A DNA stretch of 64,000 nucleotides. It comes from Pandoraea norimbergensis (lineage in GTDB: Bacteria; Pseudomonadota; Gammaproteobacteria; Burkholderiales; Burkholderiaceae). Positions within the stretch are counted from its first letter, which is position 1. Every line of letters begins with the position of its first letter. The DNA lies in assembly GCF_001465545.3 (NCBI RefSeq), contig NZ_CP013480.3:3658001-3722000 (forward strand). Direction: 5' to 3'. A program made the position numbers and the translations under genes. Below are positions 42,492 to 46,569 of this stretch, piece after piece. The notes below the pieces were generated by a model, which was not told the origin of the DNA, did no database searches, and was given only the letters and a program-made list of their open reading frames with translations.

Positions 42492-43562
42492 TCAGCCCGC
42501 CAGAATTTCCTTCAATGCGTCTGTGAAGGTCTCGCACTCGGCGTCGGTGCCCACCGTAATACGCAGGAACTGCGCTACGCGCGCGTTCTTGAAGTGACGC
42601 ACGATGATCGCGCGCTCACGCAGCGCGGCCGCCAGTTGCGCCGCATCGTGCGACGGATGACGCGCGAACACGAAGTTTGCCTTCGACGGCAGCACTTCAA
42701 AGCCCAGCGCCGTCATGCGTTCTACCAGCGCCTCGCGACTCGCGATCACTGCCTGACGCGTCTGCTCGAAGTACGGCTCGTCTTCGATCGCCGCCACACC
42801 GGCCGCTTGTGCCAGCCGGTCGAGCGGATACGAGTTGAAGCTGTTCTTCACGCGCTCTAGTGCTTCGATCAGATCCGGGTGACCGATGGCGAAACCCAAC
42901 CGCAATCCGGCCAGCGAGCGCGACTTCGACAGCGTCTGCACCACCAGCAGGTTCGGATACTTCGCAATCAGCCCCGCCGCCGTCTCGCCGCCAAAGTCGA
43001 TATACGCCTCGTCGATCACGACCACCGAGCCGGCGTTATCCGCCAGCACGCGCTCGATCTCGCCCAAGCCAATCGCACGGCCCGTCGGGGCGTTCGGATT
43101 CGGGAAGATGATGCCGCCGTTCGGCTTGCGGTAATCCTCCGCGCGAATCTCGAACGTGTCGGACAGCGGCACGGTCTCGAATGCGACGCCATACAGCCCG
43201 CAATACACCGGATAGAAGCTGTACGTGATGTCCGGGTAGAGAATCGGCTTGTCGTGTTTGAGCAGCCCCTGAAACACGTTGGCCAGCACTTCGTCCGAAC
43301 CGTTGCCCACGTGCACGTTGGCAACCTCCAGACCGAAACGCGTCGCGATCGCCTGCTTGAAGCGGCTCGCATCCGGGTCCGGATACAGCTTCAGTGCCTC
43401 GGCATCACTGCCGAGCGCGTCGCGAATCGCGGCGAGCACGCGCGGCGACGGGCCGTACGGGTTCTCGTTGGTATTGAGCTTGATGAGCCGCTGCATCTGC
43501 GGCTGCTCACCGGGCACGTAGGGCGTCAGATCGGCAACGCCCGCGCTCCAGAATCGACTCAT
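42492..43562 (-). CDS. hisC: Histidinol-phosphate aminotransferase
   Basis: A 356-residue class I/II PLP aminotransferase that turns imidazole-acetol phosphate into histidinol phosphate. The [17 protein letters not shown] start, [10 protein letters not shown], the substrate-recognition [12 protein letters not shown] and the PLP-Lys in [17 protein letters not shown] are intact. It is not within a his operon here; instead it follows metZ by 14 bases, suggesting cotranscription and a possible broader role as an aromatic aminotransferase, as in other species that carry several HisC paralogues. The assignment to histidine synthesis is from family similarity. Confidence 0.9.
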
Positions 43563-43576
43563 GCGCTGCGCTCCGC

Positions 43577-44773
43577 TTATTGCGCGTTCGGCGCAAAGCC
43601 GCGCGACAGATCGGCCTGAATGTCGGCGGGCGACTCAAGCCCCACCGCCAGACGAATCAGCCCTTCCGTAATCCCCGCGGCAGCGCGTGCTTCCGGCGTG
43701 ATACGGCCGTGCGTGGTGCTGGCCGGGTGCGTGATGGTCGTGCGCGTATCGCCCAAGTTGCCGGTAATCGACAGCACGCGTGTGTTGTCGATGACGCGCC
43801 AGGCGTTTTCGCGTTGTTCGGCAGGCGTGGCGCCCTTCAGCTCGAACGCGACGATGGCGCCGCCCGCCTTCTGCTGACGCTGCGCCAGTTCGTATTGCGG
43901 ATGCGACGGCAGGCCCGGGTAGAACACGCGCGCCACTTGCGGTTGCTGCTCCAGCCATTGCGCTACGGTCAGTGCGCTGGCCGATTGCCGCTCCATGCGC
44001 AGCGACAGCGTTTCCATGCCCTTCAGAATCACCCATGCGTTAAACGCCGAGAGCGTCGGGCCCGCGCTGCGCACGAACGGGAAAACCTTGCCCATGATGA
44101 AGTCTTTCGTGCCCACGATGGCACCGCCCAGCACACGGCCCTGACCGTCGAGATACTTGGTGGCCGAGTGCACGACCACGTCCGCGCCGTATTCGATCGG
44201 ACGCTGCAACGCCGGCGTACAGAAACAGTTGTCGACGACGAACAACGCATTCGCTTCCTTCGCGATCTTGCCGATGGCGGCAATGTCGGCGATGTCGGTG
44301 AGCGGGTTCGACGGGGTTTCGAGGAAGAACATCTTCGTGTTCGGCTTGATCGCGGCGCGCCAGGCGTCGAGATCGGTCGGATCGACGAAGGTCGTCTCCA
44401 CGCCGAAACGGCTGAAGATCGTCGAGAACACGTTCAGCGTGGAGCCAAAGATGCTTTGCGAGCTGACGAGGTGATCGCCGGCCGACAGGGCCGTCATCAC
44501 GACCGAGACAATCGCGGCCATGCCCGAGGCGGTAGCCATACAGGCCTCACCGCCTTCGAGTGCCGCCAGACGGTCCTGGAACATCGACACCGTCGGGTTG
44601 GTGAAGCGCGAATAGGTGAAGCCCTCTTCCGAGTGCGCGAAGCGCTCGGCAGCCTCGGCTGCGCTCTTGAAGACGAAGCTCGAGGTCAGGTACAGCGCCT
44701 CGGAATGCTCACCAAACTCGGAGCGCTGCGTGCCCGCGCGCACCGCCAGGGTATCGAAATCGAAGGAGTCCAT
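43577..44773 (-). CDS. metZ: O-succinylhomoserine sulfhydrylase
   Basis: A 398-residue Cys/Met-metabolism PLP enzyme that makes homocysteine from O-succinylhomoserine and sulfide. The [27 protein letters not shown] start, the PLP-phosphate Tyr/Arg region [11 protein letters not shown] and the Schiff-base Lys in [16 protein letters not shown] are typical of MetZ. The leader contains a SAM-II-like aptamer and then a terminator, so expression should fall when S-adenosylmethionine is plentiful. Only about 15 bases separate the terminator T-tract from the ATG. hisC follows by 14 bases, so the riboswitch may govern both. Confidence 0.95.
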
Positions 44774-44787
44774 CGTGTATCTCGTTT

Positions 44788-44828
44788 CAAAAAGAAAAAG
44801 CCCGTTTCGCTTGTCAGCAAAACGGGCT
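44788..44828 (-). terminator. Leader terminator in front of metZ
   Basis: On the minus strand AGCCCGTTTTGC pairs with GCGAAACGGGCT (one G-U pair, loop TGACAA), followed directly by TTTTTCTTTTT. It stands between the aptamer and the metZ start codon, where it can act as the switchable off-signal. Confidence 0.88.
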
Positions 44829-44847
44829 CGAAATCCATCTGTCTAGG

Positions 44848-44909
44848 CCTCGCTTTAGCTGTTTCGGGGATGTTCCCCCACGTCCGCAAGCTGAAATCAA
44901 ATCGACGTG
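44848..44909 (-). promoter_or_regulatory. SAM-II-type riboswitch aptamer
   Basis: Minus-strand RNA features: P1 stem CACGUC (44909-44904) with GACGUG (44884-44879); loop GAUUUGAUUUCAGCUUGCG; then an optional 5-bp hairpin GGGGA/UCCCC; then the conserved AAACAGCUAAAGCGAGG. Loop bases UUUC-A-GCUU can pair with AAGC-GAGG in the 3' tail to form the pseudoknot P2 with one bulged A. GAUUU, CUUGC, AAA and GCUAAA are the landmarks of SAM-II (SAM-alpha). A possible -10, TACACT (44916-44921), puts the transcript start at the first base of P1. The gene controlled is metZ, matching the ligand. Confidence 0.8.
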
Positions 44910-45027
44910 AAAAGCAGTGTAGCACGTTGCAGGCGCGGAAGGAAAATCCCCCTTTGCGCTGCTGACCGGCCTCTGGCGCCGTAGCGCGTTGGCCGTCCGG
45001 TCTGAGCGGCGCGCCCAGCCACTGGCC

Positions 45028-46569
45028 TTACAGGCCGAGCTGAGCCCCGCGGGGCTCGTTTTCGTCACCCTCGCCGCCATCGCCATTGTCACCGGCATCG
45101 CGCTCGACCGACGCCTTCGGCGCCTTGCGTTGCTGTTCCAGACGGTTCAGGTATTCGACGGTGATGTCGCCCGTGATGTAGTTGCCATCGAAGCACGAGG
45201 CATCGAAGTCAGTCAGCGCCGGGTTGATGTCACGCACGGCAGCCTTCATGTCTTCGACGTCCTGATAAATCAGTTCGTCGGCACCGATGATGCGCGCCAC
45301 TTCTTCGTCGCTGCGATCGTGGGCCACCAGTTCGCTGCGCGTCGGCATGTCGATGCCGTACACGTTCGGGAATTTCACGGGCGGCGCCGCCGACGCGAAG
45401 ATCACCTTGCGGGCACCGGCGTCGCGCGCCATTTGCACGATTTCCTGGCTGGTCGTACCGCGCACGATCGAGTCATCGACGATCAGCACGTTCTTGTCCT
45501 TGAACTCAACGCGCATGGCGTTGAGCTTCTGGCGCACCGACTTCTTGCGCATCGCCTGACCGGGCATGATGAAGGTACGGCCAACGTAGCGGTTCTTGAA
45601 GAAGCCTTCGCGATAATTCAGGCCCAGACGCTTGGCAACCTGCATGGCGGCCGGACGGCTGGAGTCCGGAATCGGCATCACGACGTCGATGTCCTTGTAA
45701 TCGATCTCGCGGCGAATCTTCTCGGCGAGATAGTCACCCATGCGCAGACGTGCGTCGTAGACCGCCACGCCATCGAGCACCGAGTCAGGACGGGCCAGAT
45801 ACACGAGTTCGAAAATGCAGGGATGCAGCGACGTGGCTTCCGCGCATTGCTGCGAGGTCAGTTCGCCGTCGTTGCTGATGAAGATCGCTTCGCCCGGCTT
45901 GACGTCGCGCTCGAACGCGAAGCCCATGCCTTCGAGCGCCACCGACTCCGACGCCACCATCCACTCCGTGCCGTTCGGGCCTTCGAAGCGGCCGATGCAC
46001 AGCGGACGGATACCGTTCGGATCGCGGAACGCGAGCAGACCGAAGCCGGAGATGATCGAGACAATCGCGTACGAGCCACGCAGGCGACGATGCACACCGC
46101 GCACGGCTTCGAACAGCGACGGCACGCTCAGGCCGTCGAGCGAGCTTTGCTGCAACTCGTGCGCGAGCACGTTGAGCAGCACTTCGGAGTCGGAGGTCGT
46201 GTTGATGTGACGGCGGTCGATGCGGAACATCTCGTCTTTGAGCTGTTCCCAGTTCGTCAGATTGCCGTTGTGCGCGAGCACGATGCCGTACGGGGCATTC
46301 ACGTAGAACGGCTGCGCTTGCGCCGCGCTCGACGAGCCAGCCGTCGGGTAGCGCACCTGACCGATACCCACCTGACCCGGCAGGTCACGCATGTTGCGCG
46401 TGCGGAACACGTCGCGCACCATGCCGTTGCCCTTGTGCATGTAGAACGACTGGCCATCCGTCGTCGCAATGCCGGCGGCGTCCTGGCCGCGATGCTGCAA
46501 GAGCAGCAGGCTATCGTAAATGAACTGATTGACAGGGGACTTGGAGACTACACCGACGATGCCACACAT
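45028..46569 (-). CDS. purF: Amidophosphoribosyltransferase
   Basis: A 513-residue enzyme that makes 5-phosphoribosylamine, the first step of purine synthesis. MCGIVGVVSKS gives the N-terminal Cys nucleophile of the glutaminase after Met removal. GQVRYPTAGSSSAAQAQPF and NGNLTNWEQLK are glutamine-domain motifs. The PRPP-binding loop is VLIVDDSIVRGTTSQE. There is no iron-sulfur Cys pattern, so it is the E. coli-like class. A charged C-terminal tail follows. It is downstream of cvpA by 59 bases, the classic cvpA-purF pair. Confidence 0.96.
   Translation of the reverse strand: MCGIVGVVSKSPVNQFIYDSLLLLQHRGQDAAGIATTDGQSFYMHKGNGMVRDVFRTRNMRDLPGQVGIGQVRYPTAGSSSAAQAQPFYVNAPYGIVLAHNGNLTNWEQLKDEMFRIDRRHINTTSDSEVLLNVLAHELQQSSLDGLSVPSLFEAVRGVHRRLRGSYAIVSIISGFGLLAFRDPNGIRPLCIGRFEGPNGTEWMVASESVALEGMGFAFERDVKPGEAIFISNDGELTSQQCAEATSLHPCIFELVYLARPDSVLDGVAVYDARLRMGDYLAEKIRREIDYKDIDVVMPIPDSSRPAAMQVAKRLGLNYREGFFKNRYVGRTFIMPGQAMRKKSVRQKLNAMRVEFKDKNVLIVDDSIVRGTTSQEIVQMARDAGARKVIFASAAPPVKFPNVYGIDMPTRSELVAHDRSDEEVARIIGADELIYQDVEDMKAAVRDINPALTDFDASCFDGNYITGDITVEYLNRLEQQRKAPKASVERDAGDNGDGGEGDENEPRGAQLGL

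Follow-up and report, generated by a model that had tools for sequence, protein, structure and literature searches.

The leader of metZ in Pandoraea norimbergensis likely contains a divergent SAM-II-type riboswitch that works as a transcriptional OFF switch, in which SAM binding and ligand-dependent termination are predicted. The leader combines a SAM-II-like fold with helices that covary among relatives, the residues of the SAM pocket, a methionine gene context, a conserved terminator, and complementarity between a putative switching strand and that terminator. The window that we analyzed is a 64,000-nt stretch of contig NZ_CP013480.3 (positions 3,658,001-3,722,000 of the forward strand), and window coordinates are used throughout.

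Architecture of the metZ leader

The SAM-II-type element occupies the minus strand from 44909 to 44789, 5' of metZ. Its parts and the neighboring genes are as follows.

45028-46569, purF, upstream of metZ
44916..44924, minus strand, extended -10 promoter element TGCTACACT, with a start expected near 44909, at the first bases of P1
44904..44909, minus strand, 5' strand of P1, CACGUC (P1 covariation)
44885..44903, minus strand, L1, 19 nt, with SAM-pocket residues GAUUU (44903-44899) and UUGC (44889-44886)
44896-44888, minus strand, 5' strand of P2 inside L1, UUUC-A-GCUU (P2 pairs 21-129 and 22-128 covary)
44879..44884, minus strand, 3' strand of P1, GACGUG (P1 covariation)
44866..44878, minus strand, extra hairpin GGGGA-ACA-UCCCC between P1 and L3 (folding; L3 survey of the aligned rows)
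44848..44861, minus strand, CAGCUAAAGCGAGG, with pocket residues GCUAAA (44859-44854) and the P2 3' strand; proposed switching strand
44855-44848, minus strand, 3' pseudoknot strand of P2, AAGCGAGG
44798..44829, minus strand, intrinsic terminator stem-loop, 14 pairs, -23.4 kcal/mol (conservation)
44815..44827, minus strand, segment GCCCGUUUUGCUG of the terminator 5' arm, able to pair with 44861-44847 (13 pairs, -17.4 kcal/mol)
44789..44797, minus strand, U-tract UUUCUUUUU (sequence)
43577..44773, minus strand, metZ, O-succinylhomoserine sulfhydrylase (NF006003, 726.7 bits, cut-off 522; TIGR01325, 581.7 bits, cut-off 510.05)
42492..43562, minus strand, hisC, histidinol-phosphate aminotransferase (TIGR01141, 308.2 bits, cut-off 276.55)

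The first-pass annotation had described a complete SAM-II-like fold in this leader, and P1, both pseudoknot strands, the GCUAAA core, and the added hairpin are all present on the minus strand. The 13-nt hairpin is inserted before L3, which in known SAM-II is short, A-rich, and docked in the P1 minor groove; the sequence GAAACA is kept after the hairpin. Folded as a single sequence, the 152-nt leader gave z = -2.7 and its 103-nt nascent form z = -1.7, scores that we did not rely on alone. At the promoter, the leader has no -35 match and a sigma-70 scan returned no promoter there. The extended -10 TGNTANNNT, with its hexamer starting 17-20 nt 5' of L1, is present in 50 of 57 same-family metZ leaders.

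Because only 14 nt separate the metZ stop from hisC, the two genes are likely co-transcribed. The genome holds two genes over the HisC cut-off (TIGR01141), and the hisC after metZ is one of them. It had been suggested that this shared transcript would link SAM to an aminotransferase. The arrangement is constant within the genus, where hisC lies 3' of metZ in 14 of 14 loci, but hisC was not found past metZ in 27 other same-family loci with at least 480 bases there or in the 28 of 32 Burkholderia loci holding at least 700 bases there (16 family loci with 111-193 bases past metZ and 4 Burkholderia loci had too little sequence and were left out of the count). Among these loci the hisC-metZ pairing is seen in the genus of the window only, where a SAM link to hisC is plausible. 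The leader also contains an AUG at 44838, 9 nt past the GAGG of P2, that opens a 50-codon frame through the terminator and overlaps the metZ start out of frame with metZ; the same AUG is found in loci L001-L014.

Family membership, covariation, and gene context

We searched the leader with Rfam, where a hit to the SAM-II model above threshold had been proposed as a check. This hit was not obtained: RF00521 (SAM_alpha) gave a partial match of 13.4 bits (E 1.4; threshold 36). The best Rfam match at the window was instead RF02424 (Bp2_287), on the plus strand, with 58.3 bits (under its threshold of 70). This model also matched the strand opposite metZ in 17 of 17 same-family loci scanned, 11 of them over threshold, and RF00521 was found in none of the 17 at E up to 2. 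A search with the leader sequence hit 57 of 150 genomes of the window's family, at 58 loci, and 57 of these have metZ as the next gene in sense orientation. The exception (L058), an additional match within one genome where metZ is not next, was rejected as a chance match.

To reach beyond the family we used R1, a covariance model from 34 family metZ leaders with a structure of P1 and the hairpin only. At E up to 0.05, and counting the window's own family, R1 had matches in 195 of the 300 genomes searched in the order and in 48 of the 398 in the phylum sample. From the order search (195 genomes) we took 30 loci directly, the first few repeating family loci, and 60 further places; the search for the aptamer alignment took in 96 loci. 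Twenty loci from the order search and 20 from the phylum search were scanned with Rfam. Among the order loci, RF00521 appeared on the R1-match strand in 17 of 20 (E up to 0.5), 9 of which exceed the threshold; in 15 of the 20, RF02424 matched the opposite strand. RF00521 was likewise found in 17 of the 20 phylum-search loci, at or over threshold in three: L112 (67.4 bits), L102 (39.2 bits), and L098 (36.0 bits). L112 is a locus from another class that was found by R1. Six of the 40 scanned loci lacked RF00521 (L073, L075, L079, L100, L104, L108). All six have the L3 hairpin, which occurs in none of the remaining loci among the 35 of 40 with an alignment measured, and this suggests that the hairpin accounts for Rfam missing such members. 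Since R1 finds loci that pass RF00521, intermediates connect the window element with accepted members of SAM-II, and the searches support one continuous SAM-II family that would include the window leader.

Covariation was evaluated in an alignment of 105 R1 matches; R1 both selected and aligned these rows, and its structure includes P1 and excludes P2. The first-pass annotation had named a lack of covariation in P1 and the pseudoknot among relatives as evidence against the element, and both helices do covary: their score was 0.172 against a shuffled mean of 0.072 (0 of 500 shuffles as high), and the best slid version scored 0.068. Further pair types, at 22 versus 20.6 in shuffles (105 of 500 as high), were not above chance in the 105 rows. 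In these rows P1 is paired in 96.7% of cells with four pairs changing on both sides, and P2 in 88.4% with two such pairs. The outer pairs of P2 are open in 53 and 21 of the 105 rows, and pair 25-126 is open in 28. The 34 family-only rows vary little and point in the same direction (0.091 versus 0.054 shuffled), and further pair types were likewise not above shuffles among them.

The nucleotides listed for the SAM-II pocket, of which U11, U21, G22, U44, and A47 are described as contacting SAM (PMC3764141), are all present in the window leader. The pocket positions are invariant in 105 of 105 rows except for U10 (101 of 105), an invariance that selection of the rows by R1 favors. L3 is at least 18 nt long in 22 of the 105 rows, and all 22 carry a hairpin of -3 kcal/mol or better with varied sequence, so that the hairpin seems to be a recurrent insertion.

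Gene context was summarized for the 122 instances from L061 onward, which include four family repeats (L061, L062, L063, L090). Homologs of metZ, metX, or metK follow 87 of them, where the metZ label covers homologs to 34% identity, and 35 are without any. A Pfam scan of ten downstream proteins among the 35 gave two metH-like, one metF-like, two MATE-transporter-like, and two ABC ATPase-like proteins (one with a NIL domain), and three without a family. Taken with the fold, covariation, pocket residues, and bridge to RF00521 members, the metZ, metX, and metK context supports the earlier assignment of the leader to a SAM-II-type aptamer, although it misses the RF00521 threshold. We thus regard it as a real divergent variant below the Rfam threshold, for which SAM binding is predicted.

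Several further arrangements were noted among these loci. At L098 and L141 the gene after the R1 match encodes an ABC transporter ATPase, and one of the two proteins has a NIL domain, a mark of methionine importers. A metK homolog (the SAM synthetase gene) is preceded by a SAM-II-type leader at L064, L077, L078, L102, and L105. In the P. norimbergensis genome itself, metX is preceded by another SAM-II-like element, whose L3 hairpin is long (L115:1247-1349, contig C1). It scored 21.1 bits with R1 in a smaller search and 14.4 bits with RF00521 and was also seen by regular expression; the R1 search of the genome did not list it. Of 32 genus genomes, 27 have two R1 matches, the second with E up to 0.011.

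Terminator and switching strand

A terminator of 12 bp with a T-tract had been placed 20 bases downstream of the aptamer, with the suggestion that control may be by termination. The terminator and tract are there, with a stem of 14 pairs that begins 18 nt past GAGG. A simple terminator scan was non-significant (2 found versus 2.7 expected), and the weight of this feature therefore comes from its conservation. Of 180 aptamer instances, 164 are followed within about 190 nt by a terminator-like hairpin with an energy of -8 kcal/mol or lower. An instance was counted only with GATTT..TTGC[GA], GCTAAA at most 90 nt away, four of five P1 matches, and 195 nt of downstream sequence. The 180 include duplicates (e.g., L059 = L001 and L061 = L024), wrong cores where the GCTAAA just 3' of P1 was taken (L099, L101, L152), and over-extended hairpins (e.g., L066, L016).

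Some of the pocket nucleotides lie in the strand CAGCUAAAGCGAGGC of the window, which could also make a duplex of 13 pairs with the 5' arm of the terminator. In this duplex, which was noticed by eye and then computed, CAGC.AAAGCG.GGC pairs with GCCCGUUUUGCUG with two single bulges at -17.4 kcal/mol. We evaluated the same pairing at 56 loci, obtained from the 180 instances by removing 34 (no hairpin, a hairpin weaker than -10 kcal/mol, or one more than 60 nt away), leaving 146, and then 90 that were redundant; L152, L066, and L016 remained among them. On average, the core strand paired with the 5' part of its own terminator at -12.14 kcal/mol, versus -11.05 kcal/mol when terminators were swapped among loci (0 of 2000 permutations as low) and -8.33 kcal/mol when shuffled, and 27 of 56 loci fell in the 5% tail. 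A narrower version of the pairing gave -10.91 versus -10.13 (5 of 5000 permutations; 24 of 56 loci).

Six control pairings of other segments gave p values of 0.076-0.69 and 4-12 of 56 loci, apart from L1 with the terminator 3' part (p = 0.007; 15 of 56), a signal that we read as transitivity of the pairings. The core with the 3' part gave 5 of 56 loci (p = 0.48) and the 3' part of L1 with the terminator 3' part 12 of 56 (p = 0.076). The 3' part of L1 pairs with the terminator 5' part at -14.83, stronger in absolute terms than the core, with an own-versus-swapped p of 0.69. Antiterminator strength is uneven: at several of the 56 loci it does not exceed that of shuffles, and in many Burkholderia and related leaders the terminator is 40-120 nt away and the antiterminator pairing weaker.

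For the nascent RNA of the window at 100-109 nt, the computed probability of the antiterminator was 0.97-0.98. At 103 nt its energy was -31.3 kcal/mol, versus -21.4 kcal/mol with the aptamer constrained (energies of P2 and SAM not counted). In the full-length transcript the terminator is the favored structure whether or not the aptamer is constrained. Because the full-length RNA prefers the terminator in both states, switching must be kinetic.

These features suggest the following mechanism. Transcription would begin roughly where P1 does. At high concentrations, SAM would dock in the pocket formed by L1 and GCUAAA and CAGCUAAAGCGAGG would be held in the P2 pseudoknot; the downstream hairpin could then form and polymerase would stop in the U-tract, so that only a leader RNA of about 112 nt is made and metZ (and hisC) is not transcribed. 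At low SAM, CAGCUAAAGCGAGGC would pair with GCCCGUUUUGCUG of the emerging 5' arm, delaying the terminator and allowing read-through into metZ. The order of these kinetic steps, like the inclusion of hisC in the transcript, is our prediction.

Control by termination had been set against the ribosome-site-sequestering SAM-II examples, and that contrast is not new. Corbino et al. (2005) reported SAM-II promoters immediately before P1 and many terminators (PMC1273637), and Barrick and Breaker (2007) reported SAM-II mostly with terminators in alpha- and betaproteobacteria (PMC2258182). Termination by SAM-II was thus already proposed in 2005 and 2007; the pairing of the switching strand is the new addition, and together with the terminators at 164 of 180 instances it is what carries the earlier suggestion.

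Alternative readings and relation to catalogued RNAs

Another reading of the leader is that termination there is mostly constitutive and that SAM controls translation instead, by hiding GAGG (44851-44848), which metZ would use as a remote Shine-Dalgarno sequence or as a standby site. GAGG does lie within the 3' strand of P2, the terminator separates it from the metZ start 74 nt away, the Shine-Dalgarno sequence near the metZ AUG is weak, and the AUG at 44838 is 9 nt past GAGG. There is also a close parallel in Sinorhizobium meliloti metA, which has a riboswitch GAGG, an intervening terminator, and the same 74-nt distance, and where SAM acts on translation (PMC9373788). However, the spacing from GAGG to metZ is 74 or 97 nt in the four distinct genus leaders compared and for the most part about 140-200 nt in Burkholderia-like leaders, a Shine-Dalgarno-like motif lies at most 14 nt from GCUAAA in only 56 of 117 distinct leaders, and a translational effect leaves the terminator pairing signal unexplained. 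We therefore consider it unlikely. That the SAM-II scaffold senses another ligand, such as S-adenosylhomocysteine, is a very remote prospect. The L3 hairpin and low RF00521 score do indicate divergence, and there is a precedent in a riboswitch for spermidine that descends from a SAM aptamer (PMC10853860), but the SAM-contacting residues U11, U21, G22, U44, and A47 (PMC3764141) are unchanged. The downstream genes are, moreover, mostly genes of methionine and SAM synthesis. The SAM aptamer behind the spermidine riboswitch was reportedly SAM-I.

The Rfam matches raise the question of strand, as RF02424 models a small RNA, which here would be on the plus strand. In favor of this are its 58.3 bits on that strand of the window (threshold 70), its position opposite metZ in all 17 family loci (11 over threshold), and the RT-PCR, primed with oligo(dT), on which Khoo et al. 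(2012) list the candidate as a verified sRNA (PMC3521395). Read on the metZ strand, however, P1 has 26 G-U and 1 A-C cells and P2 34 and 21 (the weaker difference), and the metZ strand is favored as the RNA strand because G-U cells outnumber A-C cells in both helices. Of 128 distinct terminator hairpins, 85 are stronger on the metZ strand and 40 weaker; the extended -10 and U-tract are oriented with metZ; and products predicted on the metZ strand at five Burkholderia-like loci are 136-144 nt, near RIT77 (135 nt) and BTH_s31 (143). Khoo et al. themselves proposed a cis element of methionine metabolism (PMC3521395). We rejected a plus-strand sRNA on the strand counts and the direction of promoter and U-tract, and give it hardly any credence.

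The metZ-strand riboswitch that we prefer can be compared with several described systems. It shares with SAM-II RF00521 (the metA motif) an H-type pseudoknot, the pocket residues, a promoter just 5' of P1, methionine genes, and frequent terminators, and differs in the hairpin inserted before L3 and in its 13.4 bits against a threshold of 36. The S. meliloti metZ leader gives rise to an sRNA of roughly 100 nt that is higher in rich medium (Scheuer et al., 2022; PMC9373788). This SAM-II/sRNA RZ system resembles ours in gene name, aptamer, and a leader terminator that yields a short RNA, higher in rich (high-SAM) medium; unlike ours, it is alphaproteobacterial and was studied by experiment. The metXZ element of Leyn et al. 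(2014; PMC4239095) also lies in metX and metZ leaders and has two crossing helices (regions 1-4 and 2-6) with a terminator downstream. No ligand is named for it in the parts of that paper available, its antiterminator (regions 3 and 4) is different, and 30 of its 35 copies are at metXW. Compared by description of layout, the window-type element is probably the metXZ element. RF01726 (SAM-II long loops), judged by name, is SAM-II with enlarged loops and is listed for Bacteroidetes and marine sequences. It was not among the matches listed in our Rfam scans of the window, family, order, and phylum loci, and is perhaps outside the Rfam copy searched.

RF02424 (Bp2_Cand287_SIPHT) matches the same place as our element in 17 of 17 loci scanned and is modeled as an sRNA on the opposite strand; its sources, as far as available, carry no riboswitch assignment. 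A branch of SAM-II is thus apparently filed in Rfam as RF02424 on the wrong strand. A 2024 review equates RIT77, BTH_s31, and Bp2_287, lists them as sRNA, and gives RIT77 as 135 nt on the plus strand of chromosome 2 (PMC10987360). BTH_s31 appears with 143 in a table row beside BTH_II0686, which a locus-tag look-up identified as purF. From the family gene order we infer that RIT77 and BTH_s31 lie on the metZ strand with metZ as the next gene. In our incomplete coverage of the literature, we found no paper that joins the names Bp2_287, BTH_s31, RIT77, or metXZ with SAM-II, or SAM-II with Burkholderia metZ.

More generally, in betaproteobacterial SAM-II the ligand-binding strand (GCUAAAG and the P2 3' strand) may itself be the antiterminator for which SAM and the terminator 5' arm compete, and the terminated leaders may be Bp2_287, BTH_s31, and RIT77, which would make this control widespread under two wrong or unlinked names. 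We consider this broader claim evenly balanced between holding and failing. Were it true, RF02424 ought to be flipped to the other strand and joined to SAM-II, and an orphan element of betaproteobacteria would acquire a ligand. Several Burkholderia sRNAs now in catalogues would then report how much SAM is present, and a concrete, testable pairing would be available for the expression platform of SAM-II, which has been little studied. For biology at large it would be a modest extension of a known riboswitch class.

Tandem SAM-II arrangements, already known (PMC9481103), also occur in our set. Two SAM-II-type aptamers with a terminator-like hairpin after the first were found at L124, L134, L143, L148, L166, L167, L172, L174, and L177. 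A MATE transporter is downstream at L134 and L166, and a short ORF without a Pfam family at L143, L148, and L174. Outside the window's class, in the same phylum, tandem aptamers were found at L094, L097, and L106, and the second aptamer of L106 ends about 95 nt 5' of a metZ homolog.
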